Below are positions 55,300 through 64,000 of a stretch of 64,000 nucleotides of DNA, piece by piece (the stretch's first letter is position 1; each line of letters opens with the position of its first letter). Position numbers and translations under genes: made by a program. The notes below the pieces were generated by a model. It did not search any database. It was not told the origin of the DNA and worked only from the letters and a program-made list of their open reading frames with translations. This stretch comes from Variovorax terrae (GTDB taxonomy: Bacteria > Pseudomonadota > Gammaproteobacteria > Burkholderiales > Burkholderiaceae_C), in assembly GCF_022809125.1 (NCBI RefSeq), contig NZ_JALGBI010000001.1:3100001-3164000 (forward strand), written 5' to 3'.

Positions 55300-56301
55300 T
55301 CATCCATCATATGTGGGACGTCCTTGTTCGCGGTACCAACTGCGAACAAGGTGCCTCCTGTACTTCGGATTTACTTCATCTTCAAAGGCGCTGCGAGCAT
55401 GTGCGGTCCAATGGTTGTTGACAAACTGCATTTCGCCGCGTTCGATGCGATATTCGATCGACATCTCATCGCGACGCAAAATATGCTCAAGGCATTCCAG
55501 GGCTTCAACAAGCAAGGCATCCAGCCTCTGGCCTGCGAGTGCGTAGCCTCGCCGAATGAGCTTGAACGAGAGCCTTACCGTTAACTGTTGCCGAGAAAAA
55601 TGGAATACGGGTGCAGTCAGAGTCTTCGAGGCACCACGACAATGCTCTTCCTGTCTGTCGTAGTACACAGGTTCATACAAACGTCGCAATAGCTTCGGAC
55701 TCAGCTTCAGTAGTTCGTTGTGAACGGAATACATACTACAGAAGCGACTGATTCCACCACGCGCCGCCGGATAGATACAAAGCAATCCGACATAGTCGGG
55801 CACCGAGAGACCAAAAGCATTGTCAGTATGAAAAAAAAGTTCAGCATTGGTCTCCGCTGCACGCACGCCATAGCCGATTTCTTTCTCTGTATCAATAACG
55901 TCATACAGCATGGTTCCATCCCATTTTGTTGCAACGGGATTGGACAGCATCTGGCCGATCAGCCAGAAAATGGTCACGGCCTCCTGCTTGCTGAGAACAT
56001 TCATTGGCAGACCGCTGACAATGGCCAAGCCCATCCCGTGATGTAGCTTGTTGCGCACCTGCTGCACTACGGTGCGGCATTCAACTAGAAGAAAATCTCG
56101 CGCACGGCAAAGGAGTAGCGGCAATGGGGCGGAACGCAACTGCGTCACCACCGAGATCAGTTCGGCGACCATCGAATCAGTGAGTTCAATGCGCCAATTC
56201 GAAGTGTCGACCTCGTCCCGAGACCATGCTCGCTCCCCCAGGACAGGATGGTCAAGAATTTCTGATACTGGCACTGTGTCAGCTTGAGCAATATCATTCA
56301 T
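55300..56301 (-). CDS. TauD/TfdA-like Fe(II)/2-oxoglutarate dioxygenase (clavaminate synthase-like)
   Basis: A 333-residue oxygenase. The iron ligands are the HTD in LFFHTDNAFG (His158, Asp160) and a distal His in HWTAHARSAF (His301). Arginines in YRRHLVRSWYR (about 315-320) would bind 2-oxoglutarate. Such enzymes hydroxylate, desaturate or cyclise amino-acid-type substrates. It is the first gene of the low-GC island, transcribed away from the plus-strand cluster across a 294-bp gap. It shares only the general fold with the oxygenase at 56596, so the two are distant relatives. Confidence 0.88.
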   Translation of the reverse strand: MNDIAQADTVPVSEILDHPVLGERAWSRDEVDTSNWRIELTDSMVAELISVVTQLRSAPLPLLLCRARDFLLVECRTVVQQVRNKLHHGMGLAIVSGLPMNVLSKQEAVTIFWLIGQMLSNPVATKWDGTMLYDVIDTEKEIGYGVRAAETNAELFFHTDNAFGLSVPDYVGLLCIYPAARGGISRFCSMYSVHNELLKLSPKLLRRLYEPVYYDRQEEHCRGASKTLTAPVFHFSRQQLTVRLSFKLIRRGYALAGQRLDALLVEALECLEHILRRDEMSIEYRIERGEMQFVNNHWTAHARSAFEDEVNPKYRRHLVRSWYREQGRPTYDG

Positions 56302-56595
56302 TAATCACGGACCCTTCTGCGTTCTGCAGACTCCAATCTAATCATTCGGCTGACAATCCGATTCTTGACACATCCTGACCCTTCCATTTTCCCGAGATCA
56401 ACTAAACCAACGGCTTTTTCTATGGATATATTTCCCTCCGCTCTTTGCCAAGAGCTGGTTCGAATCGGCCGGTAGTTTTCTCATTCGGCTTGGCTTTTTT
56501 TTCAGCTACTCTATTGAATGTAGAACAGCATTGAGATTGCATCGTTCAATGTGTGATTTCAAAAACGATAAACTTCGACTCTTCAGAGAAATATC
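56302..56595. other. 294-bp divergent gap with two tiny reading frames
   Basis: AT-rich divergent promoter region. Two very short plus-strand frames are present: 56422-56475 (17 residues, MDIFPSALCQELVRIGR) and 56549-56599 (16 residues, MCDFKNDKLRLFREIS). The stop of the second overlaps the TTG start of the next gene. Neither has a strong ribosome site. The second could be a leader for translational coupling; either could in principle be a mini precursor peptide, which I consider unlikely without more evidence. Confidence 0.25.
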
Positions 56596-57453
56596 TTGAG
56601 CTTAGAACTTCGGAAGATCGGAAGATCCTTTGTCGCGGAGGTCGCCAAAGTGGATCTGCGAGATCGATGTGACAGTCAGTTCATAGAAATGATAGAAAAG
56701 GCACTTACAACCTATGGAGTGCTAGTTTTTCGGCGGCAGCGCCTTGATGACGACCAGTTGCTTTCATTTATCCAACAACTCGGCCCTCCGATTGGAGGCA
56801 GGGTCAAGGAGATCGCGGGGCGACACCCCCATTTCGTCGATGTCGGCAACGTGGATGAGAATGGCCAGATGTATGCGCGACATGGCGCGCGAGATCTCTA
56901 TATGCGCGCCAATCAACTCTGGCATACCGATGGATCACAAGCCCAGCCGCCTATTCGATTGACTATTCTGCATGCTCGTTTACTTCCCTCTGTGCCGCCT
57001 CCAACCGAATATGCTGATATGCGTGCCGCCTGGGAGGCACTGCCTTGCTCAGCACAGAATGAAATTTCTACGCTGATGGTTGAGCACAGCATACTGTGGT
57101 CTCGTCAGCAGATTGGAATGAAACCTTCTGACTTTTCTGAGCAGACAAGAGCCATGCTCCCTCCTGTCGTCCATCCCTTGGTACGTACGCACCCAGGAAA
57201 CGATCGGAAATCACTGTATCTATCCTCCCATGCGTCGCACGTCATTGGATGGCCTGTTGACAAGGGACGCGCACTCCTTCGCAAATTGACCAGTTTTGCG
57301 ACTCAACCGCAGTTTGTACATGTGCATGAATGGCTCGACCATGACCTCGTTGTATGGGACGATCGCTGGACCATGCATCGATCCACCCCATATTCAAGCC
57401 ATCATCCAAGACGACTTAGATGGTGCGGGGTGCGGGAATTGAACCCGGTCTGA
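56596..57453 (+). CDS. TauD/TfdA-family Fe(II)/2-oxoglutarate dioxygenase
   Basis: A 285-residue oxygenase with the HTD ligands in LWHTDGSQA (His110, Asp112), distal His in RWTMHRSTPY (His261) and the 2-oxoglutarate arginine in PRRLRWCGVR (about 272-275). The fold is that of 2,4-D or taurine dioxygenase. The start is a TTG after CAGAGAAATATC; no ATG is better placed. The last 33 bases coincide with a tRNA-3'-end-like sequence on the other strand, so the C-terminus may have been reshaped by an integration event. It leads the plus-strand part of the island. Confidence 0.85.
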   Translation: MSLELRKIGRSFVAEVAKVDLRDRCDSQFIEMIEKALTTYGVLVFRRQRLDDDQLLSFIQQLGPPIGGRVKEIAGRHPHFVDVGNVDENGQMYARHGARDLYMRANQLWHTDGSQAQPPIRLTILHARLLPSVPPPTEYADMRAAWEALPCSAQNEISTLMVEHSILWSRQQIGMKPSDFSEQTRAMLPPVVHPLVRTHPGNDRKSLYLSSHASHVIGWPVDKGRALLRKLTSFATQPQFVHVHEWLDHDLVVWDDRWTMHRSTPYSSHHPRRLRWCGVRELNPV

Positions 57454-57480
57454 TTACGACCACTCGCTCTGCATGCCGCC
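57421..57480 (-). pseudogene. Degenerate tRNA remnant (3' end with CCA)
   Basis: Read on the minus strand, the segment has GCAGAGCG (D-arm-like, 57465-57472), TCGTAATCAG (57450-57459, as in the anticodon arm of tRNA-Thr CGT), a T-arm CCGGG-TTCAATT-CCCGC with four of five pairs, then ACCCCGC, A and CCA at 57421. The 5' acceptor strand and variable loop are missing, so it is not a working tRNA. It may be a leftover of an attachment site. Confidence 0.5.
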
Positions 57481-57518
57481 GTGCCGCCGCTTATTCAGCA
57501 ACGAATTGACCTCTTCCT

Positions 57519-58091
57519 GTGACCCAGCTTTTAGGCCCGCGAATCCAATTGAGGCTGCTAGACGAAGCAGATGGTCCCTCTTTGTTGGCCGCGGCATTTG
57601 ATGGCGAGCTCTGGTCGCTGCCATTCACGATAGTACCTTCCCATGAAACAATCGATGACTATATTCGCATAGCACTTTCTGGGCATGCGGCAGGCACAGG
57701 AATTCCCTTCGTTATTGAGCTGATTTCAACAGGAAAGATCATCGGTTCCACACGATTTTGGAATGCAGATATCAGCGCACGAACCATTGAAATCAGCCAT
57801 ACATGGTTGGCCTTTTCCTACCAACGCACTTTCGTGAATACAGAGGTGAAGTACCTTATGCTGCAGTTTGCATTCGAACAGCTGGCGTGCATACGCGTTC
57901 AATTTCGTGTTGATGAAACGAACAGCAAATCCCGAACGGCCGTGCTCCGACTCGGCGCAAAGGAAGAAGGCCTCATTCGCCATGAACGCGTCATGCCCGA
58001 CGGTAGAAAACGCAATGCACTTCTCTACAGCATCGTCGATGACGAATGGCCAGCGATCAAATCACATCTAAGACACCGTCTGATGCTTTAG
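57519..58091 (+). CDS. GNAT-family N-acyltransferase (RimJ/RimL-like)
   Basis: A 190-residue acyltransferase with the opening GPRIQLRLLDEADGPSLL, IGSTRFWNADISARTIEIS near residue 75 and the core NSKSRTAVLRLGAKEEGL near residue 137, as in RimJ/RimL-type N-acetyltransferases. It starts with GTG. It lies 24 nt before the ATP-grasp gene and 65 nt after the dioxygenase gene. In this cluster it would acylate an amino group of the product, perhaps for tailoring or self-protection. Confidence 0.85.
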   Translation: MTQLLGPRIQLRLLDEADGPSLLAAAFDGELWSLPFTIVPSHETIDDYIRIALSGHAAGTGIPFVIELISTGKIIGSTRFWNADISARTIEISHTWLAFSYQRTFVNTEVKYLMLQFAFEQLACIRVQFRVDETNSKSRTAVLRLGAKEEGLIRHERVMPDGRKRNALLYSIVDDEWPAIKSHLRHRLML

Positions 58092-58115
58092 CAATCCGAA
58101 GCACTCCTGTTGATT

Positions 58116-59114
58116 ATGCGAAACTATCTATCTGTTATTTCCAATCATTTCCGTGCACTTCAAGAGTGGGCCATCGACAAAGAAGCGCAACTAGATTTGG
58201 ATGTCAAAACCTTCGTGCTCGAAGTAAAGCACAGAGGTCGCTACTATCATATGTATCCGCTCTTCCAAGCATCAAGCGAAGGGCAGCTTAGACACACCGG
58301 TTTTCTACCAAAAGATGTCGTTGGCTTCGGCGGATGGAGGCCCTACCCTCCCATCAGGCATCCCCACTCTCTCAATAAACTGCTCTTCAAGGATTTTCTA
58401 CGGAAATCAGAACTTCGAACCCCCACGTTCCTTACCAAGGCCGGTCAATCACAACCGGAATTCGACTATATATTGAAAGGCACTAGCGGCTCGTTCGGGA
58501 GAGAAATAGCTGGGCCATTTAGGGCTTCACAACCTGCAGATCTCAATGGGAGCACAACGAATCCCCCCCCGAGCACCCATTTCGTTGAAAAATTCATCGA
58601 AGGTACGAGTTTGAAAGTTTGGTTTTGGGGAGCAAAGGCTTTTTTTGCTCATGCCCAATCATTTCCAGAGATTGAAGGAGATGGAGTTACAACCGTAGAG
58701 AGTTTGCTGCGACAAAGGTTGACCAGTTGCAGGCTCGATTGGGAGCATTTCTCAGATCGATCCATCATTCTTGAATGCCTCCGTTTTCAGAACATCAGTA
58801 GCGGCGCCGTTCTGAAAACCGGTGAATCACTGTGGTTTGATTATCGGTATGGGAAACACTACGAGCCGGTCCACGGCGCCACGCCTGACAGCGACAACAA
58901 TCTGCCAAGCCTCCTGGAGCAAACAGGCACGCAGATTCACGACATGGGGTCTGCACTGGCAAATCTTCTAAAACCAAACTTTGCTGCGCCCATCATGATT
59001 TCAGTCGATGGGATGCTTGATCATGACGGCAATATCTGGTGGTTGGAAATGAACACCAACTCACTGATGCCGCCAGAGGGCTACGCCGCGATGTTTTCTG
59101 ATATTTTCCCTTAG
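58116..59114 (+). CDS. ATP-grasp ligase related to CphA/D-Ala ligases
   Basis: A 332-residue ATP-grasp enzyme. Visible parts are a lysine/glycine loop ILKGTSGSFGREIAGPF (about residue 122), FVEKFIEGTSLKVW (about 155), GDGVTTVESLL (about 188) and the metal-binding end SVDGMLDHDGNIWWLEMNTN (about 295-320) with the E-x-N-x-N pattern. The GDG-TV segment is the one seen in cyanophycin synthetase. Such enzymes join a carboxylate to an amine with ATP. I use the ATG at 58116; a TTG lies 6 nt upstream. It is followed after 25 nt by the YcaO gene. Confidence 0.8.
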   Translation: MRNYLSVISNHFRALQEWAIDKEAQLDLDVKTFVLEVKHRGRYYHMYPLFQASSEGQLRHTGFLPKDVVGFGGWRPYPPIRHPHSLNKLLFKDFLRKSELRTPTFLTKAGQSQPEFDYILKGTSGSFGREIAGPFRASQPADLNGSTTNPPPSTHFVEKFIEGTSLKVWFWGAKAFFAHAQSFPEIEGDGVTTVESLLRQRLTSCRLDWEHFSDRSIILECLRFQNISSGAVLKTGESLWFDYRYGKHYEPVHGATPDSDNNLPSLLEQTGTQIHDMGSALANLLKPNFAAPIMISVDGMLDHDGNIWWLEMNTNSLMPPEGYAAMFSDIFP

Positions 59115-59139
59115 AAAAAAATCGCGTCGCTGTTGACAT

Positions 59140-60315
59140 ATGCCACCCACCGTTGAGCTTCTGTGTACAGATGTCCTGGAACAGGCTGCATTCAAGTTGG
59201 TCGAAGCAAAGATCGACTGGACTTCCAATGTCCAAAGCTCAGGCTGGGGACGGGACCGCGACTTCGAAACCGCTAAATGGAAAGCTATCAATGAGGCGGT
59301 AGAGCGGCTCTGTTACACACGCCTGCCTAGGTCCATTTACTCTTCTGCCACAGAGTTGGAACGCTATGTTGAACCCGCAATGTTCGTTCGCTATTTACCA
59401 CGACAGTATGCGATGCCGGATTTCAAGTTCGCACCATTTGATGCTTTAGAGCCTAGGCACTGGGTCTGTGCCAAGCGCGTTCGAAGCGATGCAACAAATC
59501 ATATCCTCGCCGACTTTGTTTGCAGTCCTCGGGCCTTCGATGCCACCTACCGGCGCCGCTTGACAACGAATGCGTCAACTTCGGGATGCGCCAGTTCTGG
59601 CTCTATCGACGTGGCGATCATGCATGCAACGCTGGAGCTCATTGAGCGCGATGCTTTCATGCGCCATTGGTTTTCGCAAACCTCGGGTTACCATATTTCA
59701 ATCCCCACGCTCCCGCAGCAATTCAGAAGCCGCATCAATAGATTGCACGAAGCCGGATGCCGGGCAGGAGTGCAATGGCTCTACATGGGCACGCATCCCA
59801 CATGGCTCGCATGGGCCCAGCATCCAACCTTGTTCTTCACAAGCATCGGCAGCGCATCGGGACTCAACGGAGAGTTGGCGCTTGAAACGGCGCTAAACGA
59901 GCTAGAAACCATGGCGCTCGTCCGTCTTGAAGGTGTTCCTGAACAATCTATCCAGCCCAGTGAAGTGCGGGGTCCGGCGGATCACGCGGCCATCTATTCG
60001 ACAAAAAACTACTTTCAGAAAGCCGATGCGCTCTGGTATGGCGAGGCTCCACAACGCTCATTTTCGGATGCCGCAGCTGCGTTTGAAACCAATTCAGACG
60101 CCCTTTATCAACGACTCGAATCCGCGGGCCATCAACTCTATTGGGTGGATCTGACGATTCCCGAGACCCGAGGGATACTGGATGGCAGAACCATCTATAC
60201 AGTGAGAGTTCTTAGCACTCATCTAATCCCTATGGCTTTTGGATATGGTCGCCTGCCGCTGGGCATGGATACCTGGTTTCGAGTCAACACTCCCGAAATT
60301 CATCCTTTTGCATAA
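59140..60315 (+). CDS. YcaO-domain protein
   Basis: A 391-residue protein with the two YcaO ATP-binding signatures: SSGWGRDRDFETAKWKAINE followed by AVER (about residues 33-58), and TTNASTSGCASSGSIDVAIM followed by HATLELIERDAF (about 143-174). YcaO enzymes phosphorylate amide oxygens to make azolines, amidines or thioamides, normally in peptides. The C-terminus (PEIHPFA) is not the classic PxPxP. No TfuA or E1-like partner is adjacent, and no thioamide or azoline-forming dehydrogenase is present. It is flanked by an ATP-grasp ligase and a sulfur-amino-acid PLP enzyme. Confidence 0.9.
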   Translation: MPPTVELLCTDVLEQAAFKLVEAKIDWTSNVQSSGWGRDRDFETAKWKAINEAVERLCYTRLPRSIYSSATELERYVEPAMFVRYLPRQYAMPDFKFAPFDALEPRHWVCAKRVRSDATNHILADFVCSPRAFDATYRRRLTTNASTSGCASSGSIDVAIMHATLELIERDAFMRHWFSQTSGYHISIPTLPQQFRSRINRLHEAGCRAGVQWLYMGTHPTWLAWAQHPTLFFTSIGSASGLNGELALETALNELETMALVRLEGVPEQSIQPSEVRGPADHAAIYSTKNYFQKADALWYGEAPQRSFSDAAAAFETNSDALYQRLESAGHQLYWVDLTIPETRGILDGRTIYTVRVLSTHLIPMAFGYGRLPLGMDTWFRVNTPEIHPFA

Positions 60316-60339
60316 TTCATGTCATAGGTCATATCTGCC

Positions 60340-61629
60340 ATGGACAAGTACTGGCGCTTTGAAACCGCAGCGGTTCATGCTGGCTATGAACCTAGCGAGT
60401 CGCAGACATCTGTCGCACCTCCAATCTATCAAACTGCAGCCTTCGCGTTCAATGATGCGCAACATGCCGTCGATTTGTTTGACGGCAGGGAGAGCGGTCC
60501 CATCTACAGTCGGATAGCCAATCCGACGGTGCAGATGCTCGAGGCACGCGTTGCGACGCTTGAACAAGGTGTCGGAGCTACAGCCGTGGCGTCTGGGCAG
60601 GCAGCCCTTGCTTGCGCCTTTCTGACATTGACCGAAGCCGGGAGCAATATTGTTTCAGCGTCGTCCTTGTATGGCACAACTTACAACTTGCTGGGGCATC
60701 TTCTTCCGCAATATGGCATCAAAGCACGCTTTGCGGACTCGAACGATCTGAACCAATTTCAAGCATTGGTTGATGGTGATACCCGCGCAGTTTTTTGCGA
60801 GACAATTGCCAATCCGGCAGGAGACGTCGCAGACATTGAAGCGCTGGCGAATCTCGCACATGAGCGCGGCGTCCCGCTCATCGTCGACAACACTGTAGCA
60901 ACCCCCTATTTGTGCCAGCCACTCAGTCATGGAGCAGACATTGTTGTCCACTCCCTGACTAAATACATGGGAGGACACGGCGCAGCACTTGGCGGCGCCG
61001 TTGTGGATGGTGGCAAATTCCCATGGGACGACCATCCACGTAAATTTTCCCGACTGACGGCACCAGATGACAGCCATCACCAGACGTCATTTACACAGAC
61101 CTACGGCCATCGTGCATACATCGCACGCTGCGCTTCTGTCCCTCTGAGGAACCTAGGTGCGGTTATGGCGCCAGCAACAGCGATATCCATCATGCAAGGG
61201 ATTGAGACGCTTGCCTTGCGAATGGAACGAATCTGTTTCAACGCGACATTGATTGCCGGTTTTCTTCAGCAACATCCGTGTGCAGAATGGGTTCGCTACG
61301 CCGGCCTGCCCAACTATCACAACGCCGAACTCGTCAAGAAGTACCTGAACGGCCAAGGTTCAGGCGTCCTCAGTTTTGGCATCAAGGGCGGAGCGTCGGC
61401 GGGGGCCAAATTCCAGGACGCATTGCGATTGATTAGACGATCAGTCAATCTAGGTGATTGCAAAACACTGGCCTGCCATCCCGCCTCCACCACGCATCGT
61501 CAGCTATCGGACGAAGGCTTGGCCAAAAGCGGCGTTACGGACGACCTAATACGTCTATCAATTGGAATCGAGCATGTTGATGATCTGCTGTCAGACCTTG
61601 ACCAAGCATTGGCGGGCAGTCAACGCTGA
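60340..61629 (+). CDS. O-acetylhomoserine sulfhydrylase-like PLP enzyme (MetY type)
   Basis: A 429-residue enzyme of the Cys/Met metabolism PLP family. It begins FETAAVHAGYEPS, has YSRIANPTVQMLEARVATLE near residue 63 and the PLP lysine in VHSLTKYMGGHGAA near residue 208. Close relatives turn O-acetylhomoserine and sulfide into homocysteine. Located last in the plus-strand run (GNAT, ATP-grasp, YcaO, MetY), it may provide a thiol-bearing amino acid or sulfur donor for the pathway rather than serve methionine synthesis. Confidence 0.92.
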   Translation: MDKYWRFETAAVHAGYEPSESQTSVAPPIYQTAAFAFNDAQHAVDLFDGRESGPIYSRIANPTVQMLEARVATLEQGVGATAVASGQAALACAFLTLTEAGSNIVSASSLYGTTYNLLGHLLPQYGIKARFADSNDLNQFQALVDGDTRAVFCETIANPAGDVADIEALANLAHERGVPLIVDNTVATPYLCQPLSHGADIVVHSLTKYMGGHGAALGGAVVDGGKFPWDDHPRKFSRLTAPDDSHHQTSFTQTYGHRAYIARCASVPLRNLGAVMAPATAISIMQGIETLALRMERICFNATLIAGFLQQHPCAEWVRYAGLPNYHNAELVKKYLNGQGSGVLSFGIKGGASAGAKFQDALRLIRRSVNLGDCKTLACHPASTTHRQLSDEGLAKSGVTDDLIRLSIGIEHVDDLLSDLDQALAGSQR

Positions 61630-61652
61630 TATCAGCGTCAATCTACCTTGCT

Positions 61653-62414
61653 TTAAGCACTACGCAGAAATCGCTGGTTTGTCGCCAAATAGTTGATTGT
61701 GAAGAAGAACTCATCCGCCTCTCGATAGCGGGTAATTTTCTCCAAGCCAATGGGCGTAATGCGATGCAAATCGAAACCTGCTTCAGAGAAAAGATAGAAA
61801 AAGTCCTGAAAGTAGGTTCGGCTGTCAATATTGGTTCCGCCAAACTCGAACTGCAATACCTTTGTCGCACTTAGTGCATCGCCAAAAGCACTGAGAGCAC
61901 ACAGTTCATGCCCTTCGATATCCATCTTCAGAATATCAATGGTGCATCGATCCAAGACCTGGATCCAGTATTCGTCGAAGCGCACTGTACGCACTTGCTC
62001 TTCAACGTCAAAAGGCATTCCATAGTGATCGAGTTTTCGCTTGTGCAGGCTACCAAGCCCCGATCCGGGTTTGTCAGAATAAAATGATGTGAATCCATTC
62101 GTATCGGAAATGGCGCAAGGATTGATAACGATGGTTTTGTCATTTCCATGCCGCGCCTTGAGCTTCGCGATATTCGCGGTTGACGGCTCGAAAATGTGAA
62201 TCGGCAGATGAGGAAACAACCTTTTCAACTCGCGCGTATAGGTTCCACTGTGTCCCCCCATGTCAACGGCCAGCACGGGTTTTTGTTCCAGCAGGCTCGC
62301 AACCAGGGCCACTTCATGTTTGACGGTCCCAGAGCCATATCCTTTTCCCTGCCCATATGCCGCTTTTTTTTCGATGAAGCGCAAAGCATTAAAAATCCAC
62401 TGAGGAGCATTCAT
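61653..62414 (-). CDS. FkbM-family methyltransferase
   Basis: A 253-residue SAM-dependent methyltransferase with the SAM loop VLAVDMGGHSGTYTREL near residue 47 and the FkbM signature DILKMDIEGHELCAL near residue 160. FkbM enzymes usually methylate hydroxyl groups. It is convergent with the MetY-like gene (23-bp gap) and 14 nt after the MetC-like gene. A role in product tailoring is likely. Confidence 0.88.
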   Translation of the reverse strand: MNAPQWIFNALRFIEKKAAYGQGKGYGSGTVKHEVALVASLLEQKPVLAVDMGGHSGTYTRELKRLFPHLPIHIFEPSTANIAKLKARHGNDKTIVINPCAISDTNGFTSFYSDKPGSGLGSLHKRKLDHYGMPFDVEEQVRTVRFDEYWIQVLDRCTIDILKMDIEGHELCALSAFGDALSATKVLQFEFGGTNIDSRTYFQDFFYLFSEAGFDLHRITPIGLEKITRYREADEFFFTINYLATNQRFLRSA

Positions 62415-62428
62415 ATTTATTTTTTGGC

Positions 62429-63592
62429 TCAGTCAATTGAAGGCAATAGCCGGAGCCCCTGCGCCAGATCTGCCAGCAAATCTTCAGGATCCTCCAAGCC
62501 GACGCTGATGCGCACCAATTCGCCCTCAAGCGGCTCCGCACTGACAACTGATCGACCGTAAGAAAGAGCCAGACTCACAGGGCCACCCCAGCCAAATCCG
62601 ATTTTGAACAACTTCAGCCCATCGACAAACCGATCGACATCCGTTGAACTAAAACGCTCCTGAAAAACGAGGCTGAAAATGCCGGCGGCGGCGACACAGT
62701 CGCGCTGCCAGAAAGTGTGCCCCGGGCACGCCGTCAATGACGGGTGGAGCACGCGCAACACATCGCCGTACCTGGATAACTCTGAAACAAGAAATCTGGC
62801 GGCAGCATCCTGGGCACGGTATCGCACGCAAAGGGTGTCCAACCCCCTCAAGATAGATGCAGCATCCCGCGCGGAAACACCCAACCCCATTCGCATGGCG
62901 CAGAGTTTGAGAGCTTCGTAGAGCCCTTTGTCGTTACACGTGATGGCCCCCATGACCGTGTCACCACTTCCATTCGCATACTTGCTCAGGGACTGCACCG
63001 CAATGTCAACACCCAGTTCAAACGGCCGATAAGCTATGCCAGCCCCCCAGGTGCTGTCAAGCGCCGTCAACACACCTCGCGCCTGTGCAGACGCCGCGAT
63101 CTCGACAATATCGGGGAACTCAAATGTCGTCGAGCATGGCGCCTCGATCCATACCAATTTGGTGGTGTCTGAAAACTCGAGAGTCTCCAAGTCCGTCGGG
63201 TCATAGAGCCGAACATGAATGCCCCATGCAGCGAGTTCATGCGTAATGAAAACTCGGTTGGCCGCATAGACATTGAGCGGCACCAGCAACTCATCTCCAG
63301 GCTTCAGGAAGGTCATGTAAACGAGCGCAATCGCGCTCAGCCCGCTCGGAGAAAGCAGGCAATGCAGGCCGCCTTCAAGGCGTGCGATCCTGGCTTCAAG
63401 CTCAAATGTGGTGGGCGTCCCGTGGGATCCATAGATGAACCCGTCCTTGCGCGTCCAATCTCGCGCCCTATACGCAGCCATATTCGGGAACACCACCGTG
63501 GCGGCATCGAATGTTCCCGGTTGAATGCTCTCGAACCCCTGAACAGGCCATCGCTCACCATGCAGCAAGGCCGTAGGTTGCGCCAGCGTCAC
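62429..63592 (-). CDS. Cystathionine beta-lyase-like PLP enzyme (MetC type)
   Basis: A 387-residue PLP enzyme with FIYGSHGTPTTFELEARIAR near residue 70 and the PLP lysine in VQSLSKYANGSGD near residue 200, patterns closest to MetC-type lyases. It would cleave a C-S bond, or make one, in a sulfur amino acid. The GTG start at 63592 overlaps the preceding stop (GTGA), showing coupling with the oxygenase gene. Together with the MetY-like enzyme the cluster holds two PLP steps of the same superfamily. Confidence 0.88.
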   Translation of the reverse strand: MTLAQPTALLHGERWPVQGFESIQPGTFDAATVVFPNMAAYRARDWTRKDGFIYGSHGTPTTFELEARIARLEGGLHCLLSPSGLSAIALVYMTFLKPGDELLVPLNVYAANRVFITHELAAWGIHVRLYDPTDLETLEFSDTTKLVWIEAPCSTTFEFPDIVEIAASAQARGVLTALDSTWGAGIAYRPFELGVDIAVQSLSKYANGSGDTVMGAITCNDKGLYEALKLCAMRMGLGVSARDAASILRGLDTLCVRYRAQDAAARFLVSELSRYGDVLRVLHPSLTACPGHTFWQRDCVAAAGIFSLVFQERFSSTDVDRFVDGLKLFKIGFGWGGPVSLALSYGRSVVSAEPLEGELVRISVGLEDPEDLLADLAQGLRLLPSID

Positions 63593-64000
63593 GACACGCC
63601 CTCGATACGCTCTTCTGCAAGCGGCAACACTTGCCACCAACAGGCCAACGCTATCCGCGTTCCGGCAAGCACAGGCAGCACCTCATGGCGAAACCATGGA
63701 TTTGCAGGGAATATCACCATGGCCCCCGCCTTGGGCGCTATGTCAAGCGGGAGCTTGGACTCCCGATTCACCAGCGAATTGAATCGAAACGTTCCTCCCG
63801 CAAACTCGTGCGGGCGTTCGGCCGTTGAAGCTTGGGAAGTCAGCCACAGAATGCCGGCGATCTGCCGTTCCGGCTTAACCACATGCCATTGCGGCATGCC
63901 ACTATCCTTGGCAGGAACCAGGGCACTGTCGTCTGCATGATCCCCGATGTGATCCCCCTTTTGATAAACCAGGCATTGACGCTCGACAAGTTTCAATGAA
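63589..64000 (-). CDS. Fe(II)/2-oxoglutarate oxygenase, prolyl-4-hydroxylase type (partial)
   Basis: The C-terminal 137 residues or so of an oxygenase whose N-terminus lies past the window end, as the frame is open at base 64000. It shows the motif VYQKGDHIGDHADDSAL with the iron-binding HxD, the distal His in NPWFRHEVLPV and the 2-oxoglutarate arginine in GTRIALACWW. This is the P4Hc/PiuC-like pattern. It is upstream of and coupled to the MetC-like gene. It is the third 2-oxoglutarate oxygenase of the island and of a different subfamily from the first two. Confidence 0.85.
   Translation of the reverse strand, partial: SLKLVERQCLVYQKGDHIGDHADDSALVPAKDSGMPQWHVVKPERQIAGILWLTSQASTAERPHEFAGGTFRFNSLVNRESKLPLDIAPKAGAMVIFPANPWFRHEVLPVLAGTRIALACWWQVLPLAEERIEGVS

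Follow-up and report, generated by a model that had tools for sequence, protein, structure and literature searches.

YcaO and ATP-grasp enzymes both occur in described pathways for ribosomally synthesized and post-translationally modified peptides (RiPPs). Azoline-forming YcaO proteins carry a C-terminal PxPxP motif (PMC12670281). In "branch 6" of a graspetide survey, ATP-grasp genes lie beside YcaO/TfuA or SagB genes, and the pairing with YcaO was called previously unreported in 2022 (PMC8939145). The same survey describes PGM1, the pheganomycin ligase, an ATP-grasp enzyme that couples a non-proteinogenic amino acid with the core of a ribosomal peptide (PMC8939145). In Enterobacterales, the extra flagellar loci flag-2 and flag-3 carry cargo genes (PMC6993521, PMC7526173), and one such secondary locus encodes a 1556-residue Rhs protein (PMC6993521). 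Here, we analyzed a gene cluster at the end of a 64,000-nucleotide stretch of Variovorax terrae DNA (contig NZ_JALGBI010000001.1, positions 3,100,001 to 3,164,000; hereafter, the window), in which a YcaO and an ATP-grasp ligase are encoded together with two sulfur-type pyridoxal 5'-phosphate (PLP) enzymes and several 2-oxoglutarate (2OG) oxygenases. No paper on this combination was found in the open-licence PMC literature, outside which most subscription papers lie. The cluster probably specifies a RiPP pathway that remodels the tail of a ribosomal peptide, and the flagellar and RHS genes in its neighborhood are candidates for export or delivery of the product. The RiPP assignment itself, with enzymatic modification predicted for the precursor described below, is very likely correct.

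The cluster runs on for ≈1.3 kb past position 64,000, with a further 2OG oxygenase gene (J) and, directly upstream of it, a 62-residue open reading frame (ORF) that has a GGAG box ahead of its ATG. Homologous ORFs lie upstream of J in locus L005 (Variovorax sp. 770b2; 60 residues, 65% identical) and in L006 (a Rhodocyclales metagenome-assembled genome, MAG; 62 residues, 39% identical), and a longer homologue precedes J on another contig (L101) of the MAG that contains L007. When the three-row alignment was used in a protein search, 41 of 72 candidates, the window's own included, matched with E ≤ 0.001. In the resulting precursor alignment (43 rows, 42 of them different), the motif ARA[E/D]LV at the end of the leader and the C-terminal Tyr are present in all 43 rows. 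The tail between them, taken as the last 6–13 residues, differs from row to row in both sequence and length (the 43 rows have 33 distinct tails, for example, LSSGTY, LSCGTY and GCCCDCGSSY), while the leader is longer and better conserved. No tail lacks a Cys, Ser or Thr ahead of the final Tyr. Cys occurs in 27 of the 43 tails, compared to none of the leaders (2250 leader residues), and Asp or Glu in only four tails. It is this conserved leader and variable core, adjoining modifying enzymes that recur with it, on which the RiPP assignment rests.

Contigs of equal size, a strong hint but not proof that two entries share one contig, number 17 for precursor and J, 16 for J and the ATP-grasp ligase (D), and four for precursor and D, counting the window's own (41 precursor entries, 82 J entries and the 120 D entries listed of 159). 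The protein matches include entries from Ramlibacter, Cupriavidus and environmental Ralstonia genomes. The cluster is patchy: among 101 genomes from the genus to which G1151 (the genome of L005) belongs, one has the precursor, namely that of L005. A cysteine-synthase-like gene (CysM) lies beside precursor and J in the L007 MAG (L101 1109–2137), and another adjoins the wider-family cluster of genome G491 (L084 4352–5254); both may be there by chance. Here and below, the names IS66, FliQ, FliR, FliG, FlgB (in the window genome), CysM, CHC2 primase and the radical SAM gene of G489 were given by eye.

The initial annotation ended with the window and therefore had no view of the precursor gene at 65,103–65,291. 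It had described a low-GC island of nine genes continuing past the window end, and both observations hold: GC content is 50–55% across the island versus 65–73% in the surrounding DNA, profile scans returned the gene families as first described, and J and the precursor follow beyond the boundary. Its proposal of a sulfur-containing, amino-acid-type product, made by a YcaO and ATP-grasp core without non-ribosomal peptide synthetase or polyketide synthase, stands as far as the core enzymes and the lack of such synthases are concerned; none was found among ten cluster proteins scanned against Pfam and NCBIfam, the set to which all absences from the cluster refer, and neither was a transporter or protease. 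An origin from free amino acids is not supported: because a conserved precursor gene adjoins the operon, the cluster most likely makes a ribosomal peptide that is then modified. The genes of the cluster, in window numbering, are as follows; an IS66-like element lies beside the island.

A, 55300–56301, minus strand: TauD-family 2OG oxygenase (PF02668, E = 2.5e-31), with weak NCBIfam matches, under cut-off, to GntD, VioC and clavaminate synthase.
B, 56596–57453, plus strand: TauD-family 2OG oxygenase (PF02668, E = 5e-50).
C, 57519–58091, plus strand: GNAT acetyltransferase (PF13302, E = 2.4e-14).
D, 58110–59114, plus strand: ATP-grasp ligase, likely ATG start at 58116.
E, 59140–60315, plus strand: YcaO (PF02624).
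F, 60340–61629, plus strand: MetY-like enzyme of the O-acetylhomoserine sulfhydrylase family.
G, 61653–62414, minus strand: FkbM-family methyltransferase, 73% identical to its L005 counterpart.
H, 62429–63592, minus strand: MetC-like PLP enzyme; a longer TTG start at 63640 is possible.
I, 63589–64000 in the window and on to 64371 (ATG at 64335), minus strand: P4H-like 2OG-Fe(II) oxygenase (PF13640, E = 2e-11).
J, 64349–65023 (L002 9349–10023), past the window end, minus strand: 2OG oxygenase.
Precursor peptide of 62 residues, 65103–65291 (L002 10103–10291), past the window end, minus strand.

The YcaO, ATP-grasp and PLP genes on whose co-occurrence the earlier proposal depended are found together elsewhere. 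A YcaO scan of the named genomes yielded seven loci (L005–L011), which were then searched by tblastn with the cluster proteins. D and E occur together in all seven, F in L005, L006 and L007, H in L005 and L006, and J in L005, L006 and, on the separate contig, in the genome of L007. G and I were found only in L005, and A, B and C had no match in L005–L011. Counting the window genome, D, E and F thus occur together in four genomes, J in four and H in three; the set of precursor, J, ATP-grasp, YcaO and MetY recurs in three other genomes, two of which also have MetC. Neither J nor D had a match when plasmids were searched. From the distribution over the seven loci and the second L007 contig, the predicted core of this subtype consists of the precursor, J, D, E, F and probably H, while A, B, C, G and I would be strain-specific and supply tailoring steps that differ between strains.

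D has an ATP-grasp fold over its whole chain and is a stand-alone protein of ≈332 residues. The nearest solved folds are cyanophycin synthetase (CphA), followed by Ddl, GshAB and LysX/ArgX; by PDB profile, CphA and glutathione synthetase are nearest, so that CphA ranks first by fold and is among the nearest by profile. CphA and GshB are enzymes that lengthen peptides from the carboxyl terminus. Because of this likeness, we consider D a candidate C-terminal ligase, which would convert the carboxylate of the final Tyr to an acyl phosphate and join it to an amine.

Homologues of D are rare. Of the 399 order genomes, 145 matched, as did 32 of the 60 relatives; nearly all of these were weak ATP-grasp matches (E = 1e-8 to 1e-15), which were discarded as background since they covered only profile positions ≈82–235 in frames of mostly 720–1150 residues, as would be expected of cyanophycin synthetases from their size and the PDB profile result. 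With thresholds of 1e-20 or 1e-25 adopted after this background had been rejected, 11 of the 399 genomes sampled from the window's family, its own included, have a D homologue (E ≤ 1e-25), as do six of 398 in another family of the same order, one copy being truncated (E ≤ 1e-25). The order sample of 399 genomes contained two strong matches, the window genome and G387, and the phylum sample of 398 only the window's own (E ≤ 1e-20). The D proteins are 24–56% identical to that of the window (46-row alignment).

Grouping of the called genes at 23 D loci (L008 was dropped as the same place as G1373a, and G1376 was not grouped) placed a YcaO beside D in 16. In 12 of these 16, the YcaO has 692–766 residues, compared to ≈390–416 in the window, L005, L006 and L007. 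The three long proteins that were scanned each have an N-terminal nitroreductase part, SagB-like but under the SagB cut-off; nitroreductases of this kind are of the azoline-oxidase type. Five loci (L011, G733, G491, G736 and G387) have an ORF of 58–66 residues after the YcaO that combines a Trp motif with RLPH[RK] and ends in a Ser/Gly/Cys tail. In three others (L009, G488 and G1373b), a Trp-motif peptide is fused directly to a C-terminal part with the sequence CVLAGTP or one like it. This part is Hint-like, by a weak Pfam match under cut-off in G488 and by eye in L009 and G1373b (L009 7550–8296; L087 18653–19417; L121 15799–16512), and the fusion suggests autoprocessing of the C-terminus of the core. 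In a third subtype (G536, G1356 and G1365), highly repetitive Glu/Ser/Gly ORFs lie beside the ATP-grasp gene (L126 11866–12258; L094 15944–16279; L127 9365–9679), together with two further conserved proteins of ≈557 and ≈383 residues. In G489, a radical SAM-looking gene (L089 16181–17693) follows the YcaO and ATP-grasp set, with an odd 65-residue ORF in between.

E is the only YcaO found in the window genome. Its best NCBIfam model is SagD (TIGR03604), with 117.7 bits against a cut-off of 219.25, and the McrA thioamidation model, also under its cut-off, scores 39.9 bits. F of four clusters forms one clade (support 99/98); of the host copies in the tree, a MetY paralogue lies closest to it. A second clade is formed by H of three clusters (100/100). 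Both are separate from the host paralogues that the tree contains, which for H did not include the nearest host copy, L108, so that the comparison does not extend to it; L108 is 47.5% identical to H, compared to 69% and 53% for H of L005 and L006. The PLP lysine is kept in F and H, and H has Ser or Pro at the position of the YGR-motif Arg that is retained in a host paralogue. With eight full-length PF01053 matches in the window genome, F and H included, these two are extra copies. Roles of the MetY and MetC types in C–S chemistry are plausible predictions.

In the pathway we propose, E would use ATP to activate backbone amides, converting core Cys, Ser and Thr to thiazolines and (methyl)oxazolines. 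Such azoline chemistry is the favored assignment for E, if by a modest margin of belief; formation of a thioamide or amidine instead is unlikely. J may hydroxylate a core residue, with the Tyr or the residue before it as the best candidates. F and H would act on free amino acids, either to make a sulfur amino acid that D adds at the C-terminus, which we propose tentatively, or, with a smaller chance, to supply sulfide. Export or delivery may be by way of the flagellar and RHS neighbors.

In the window genome, an RHS frame of 4913 residues (3188911–3203652) is followed by a flagellar locus (region C1:3188911–3228000). TPR proteins and a sigma factor come first, then FliP, FliO, FliN-type, FlgE-type and FlgD proteins and the export ATPase, then FliF, FliE, rod proteins, FlgI, FlgH and FlhB; FlhA is also encoded there, and this D-linked copy is the only FlhA-family gene of the genome. 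Homologues of the window FlhA, 58–77% identical, were found in 11 of the other contexts. An FlhA-family gene lies ≤66 kb from D in 13 of 15 genomes, versus 1.0 expected by chance. The misses are G489 and G491, the latter without any FlhA-family gene in a genome scan, and G609 was dropped from the original 16, its ATP-grasp gene being on a 16.7-kb contig. Since PF00771 also covers non-flagellar type III genes, the places counted per genome are an upper count of flhA, and in the chance calculations each genome counts as independent and genome sizes are rounded. In five loci, D is only 1.2–2.5 kb from fliQ-like genes, and RHS genes lie beside D in others.

A giant RHS family was found in the fetched flanks of nine of the 23 D loci by grouping, and in G1365 and G387 as well. 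RHS repeats were detected by Pfam in large genes of G733, L005 and L006, and RHS frames beside D reach 6183 residues. Among the 10 of 15 genomes that had a single-repeat match at E ≤ 1e-10, five have an RHS gene ≤20 kb from D, versus 0.09 expected, the window genome being a miss; G733 and the genome of L006 have RHS giants beside D, yet no single repeat at that threshold. In G491, an RTX/cadherin giant lies next to D, with ABC/HlyD-type secretion genes (by eye); L009 has an HlyC gene and, next to D, type I secretion genes (ABC/HlyD-type, by eye). The flagellin profile PF00669 (E ≤ 1e-6) had no match in the window genome or in the Variovorax genome G1151, and in 11 other genomes no flagellin match shared a contig with the D-linked FlhA gene, although some of these contigs are short (G462, 24.5 kb; G1471, 44.7 kb), so that a flagellin further along could escape this count. 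The genomes with this proximity span at least nine genera. By gene content, the neighborhood looks like a filament-less flagellar export system with giant RHS proteins and RiPP modules as neighbors. A functional link is possible, and these neighbors are the best candidates for export or delivery of the peptide.

Several observations weigh against parts of this reading. In the window genome, D is 30 kb from the full-length RHS gene and 64 kb from flhA, and an IS66-like element and an 8-kb duplication lie between them; in the genome of L006, only the RHS gene is inside the stretch that was read, and flhA is outside. For these reasons, a direct link between the peptide and the flagellar genes is something we can only infer. 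The C-terminus of E reads EIHPFA, compared to PHPFP in four long relatives in the same alignment, and no E1-like/ocin-ThiF partner, SagB or TfuA is among the ten proteins, so that azoline formation is not assured. L007 has no H on its short contig. In eight of the 23 D loci (G1373a, L010, G1459, G1471, G489, G462, G502 and G441), some of them at contig ends, no convincing precursor was recognized, and tails in the other ATP-grasp subtypes mostly lack the final Tyr. With these tails and the Glu/Ser/Gly repeats of the third subtype, ligation at the C-terminus may not extend to all D-family enzymes.

The duplication is itself a tandem one (C1:3173884–3189924): in the stretch that separates the IS66-like element from the full RHS gene, 8025 bp recur exactly after a shift of 8016 bp. 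It carries a primase-like ORF of 997 residues (CHC2) and the 3' end of the RHS frame.

The alternative that survives best concerns the neighborhood only. The RHS and flagellar genes could mark a shared integration hot spot to which the peptide is unconnected, as in the Enterobacterales flag-2 loci, reported as hot spots for cargo genes (PMC6993521). The unusual GC content of the island, the adjoining IS66-like element and the patchy occurrence of the precursor (one in 101 genomes) all fit such a hot spot, which is a serious possibility, though we do not favor it. It accounts less readily for an FlhA linkage of 13 in 15 that persists while the D proteins are only 24–56% identical, for the short distances to fliQ-like genes in five loci and the RHS genes beside D in others, or for G491 and L009, where an RTX giant without any FlhA-family gene, and HlyC with type I secretion genes, take the place next to D.

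A second alternative would make the peptide a mere carrier: D adds an amino acid to its C-terminus, the final residue or two are converted by the YcaO, J and the PLP enzymes, and cleavage then frees a small product. A carrier peptide with an amino-acid-like product is the scheme of pearlin-type pathways, and it would retain the small sulfur compound first proposed. Short tails of 6–13 residues with an invariant Tyr, a leader longer and better kept than the tail, the resemblance of D to C-terminal extension ligases, and two PLP enzymes of families that require free amino groups are all as expected for it. However, 33 different tails among 43 are typical of products that contain the core, and a LanB-like peptide aminoacyl-tRNA ligase is not among the ten proteins, and we regard the carrier scheme as improbable.

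No better is the chance of a thioamide variant, in which sulfide released by MetC and MetY would be installed by the YcaO as core thioamides, not azolines. The sulfur PLP enzymes do occur only at loci whose short YcaO lacks the nitroreductase part, and the PxPxP-like C-terminal tail is lost in these short proteins; a TfuA-like partner is missing from the ten proteins, however, and the best model for E, though below cut-off like that of McrA, is the azoline-type SagD, with almost three times the score. Least probable is that ATP-grasp ligation and YcaO cyclization turn free amino acids into a small sulfur compound, with the small ORF unrelated. Free amino acids are the usual substrates of MetY, MetC and ATP-grasp enzymes, but the precursor has a strict leader conserved in L005 and L006 (65% and 39% identity) and shares 17 equal-size contigs with J, the window's own included; with the 120 D entries listed, it shares only four.

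If the RiPP pathway is as proposed, it defines a class that combines a YcaO, a cyanophycin-synthetase-like ligase, two sulfur PLP enzymes and a 2OG oxygenase, with a precursor family of variable Cys/Ser/Thr core and fixed C-terminal Tyr. Such peptides would be tied to an extra flagellar export system without nearby flagellin, often also to giant RHS proteins, and would be a named cargo candidate for supernumerary flagellar systems. More speculatively, and with little expectation that all of it is right, the filament-less machine could be a weapon or signaling device that exports giant RHS proteins together with, or loaded with, a ribosomal peptide from exchangeable cassettes. The ATP-grasp enzyme would then be constant, and the cassettes would encode YcaO–SagB, YcaO with PLP and 2OG enzymes, or Glu/Ser/Gly-repeat peptides; in the window, the ligase would cap the C-terminal Tyr with a sulfur amino acid from MetY and MetC.

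The cluster is placed among RiPPs because its modifying enzymes are encoded next to a ribosomal precursor whose leader is conserved and whose core varies. Narrower labels were set aside, because a defining feature of each was looked for and found missing. For linear azol(in)e-containing peptides or thiazole/oxazole-modified microcins (LAPs/TOMMs), the YcaO is present (PF02624), but no C-protein/ocin-ThiF F-protein partner is among the ten proteins, and the YcaO ends in EIHPFA rather than PxPxP. The same ten proteins include no TfuA, as in YcaO–TfuA thioamitide pathways, and no LanB-like ligase, as in pearlin pathways; the Asp/Glu side-chain acceptors of graspetides are present in only four of the 43 tails; and the locus has no PF00669 flagellin, which a motility flagellum or flag-2 locus would include.

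The cluster is like the LAPs/TOMMs of the streptolysin S and microcin B17 type in its ribosomal precursor, its YcaO and its Cys/Ser/Thr/Gly core, and in the SagB-like nitroreductase fused to the YcaO in the three wider relatives scanned. It differs in that the window cluster has no separate C/F partner or dehydrogenase and does not keep PxPxP, and instead has the ATP-grasp ligase, two PLP enzymes and four 2OG oxygenases. In the graspetide survey, branch 6 shares the ATP-grasp gene next to a YcaO, as far as D can be compared by description (PMC8939145), whereas the main text of that survey does not contain rhs, flagell-, cyanophycin, FkbM or oxygenase (PMC8939145). Compared by description with PGM1, D has other chemistry partners in the window. 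CphA and GshB are the solved structures nearest D by profile, but D stands alone with ≈332 residues, while the matched CphA and GshAB chains have 585–910. Like flag-2 and flag-3, the extra flagellar locus of the window genome has cargo-type genes, including RHS; unlike in them, the D-linked FlhA contigs of 13 genomes carry no flagellin match, and the window genome as a whole has none, the RHS proteins reach 6183 residues, and a RiPP module is part of the neighborhood.

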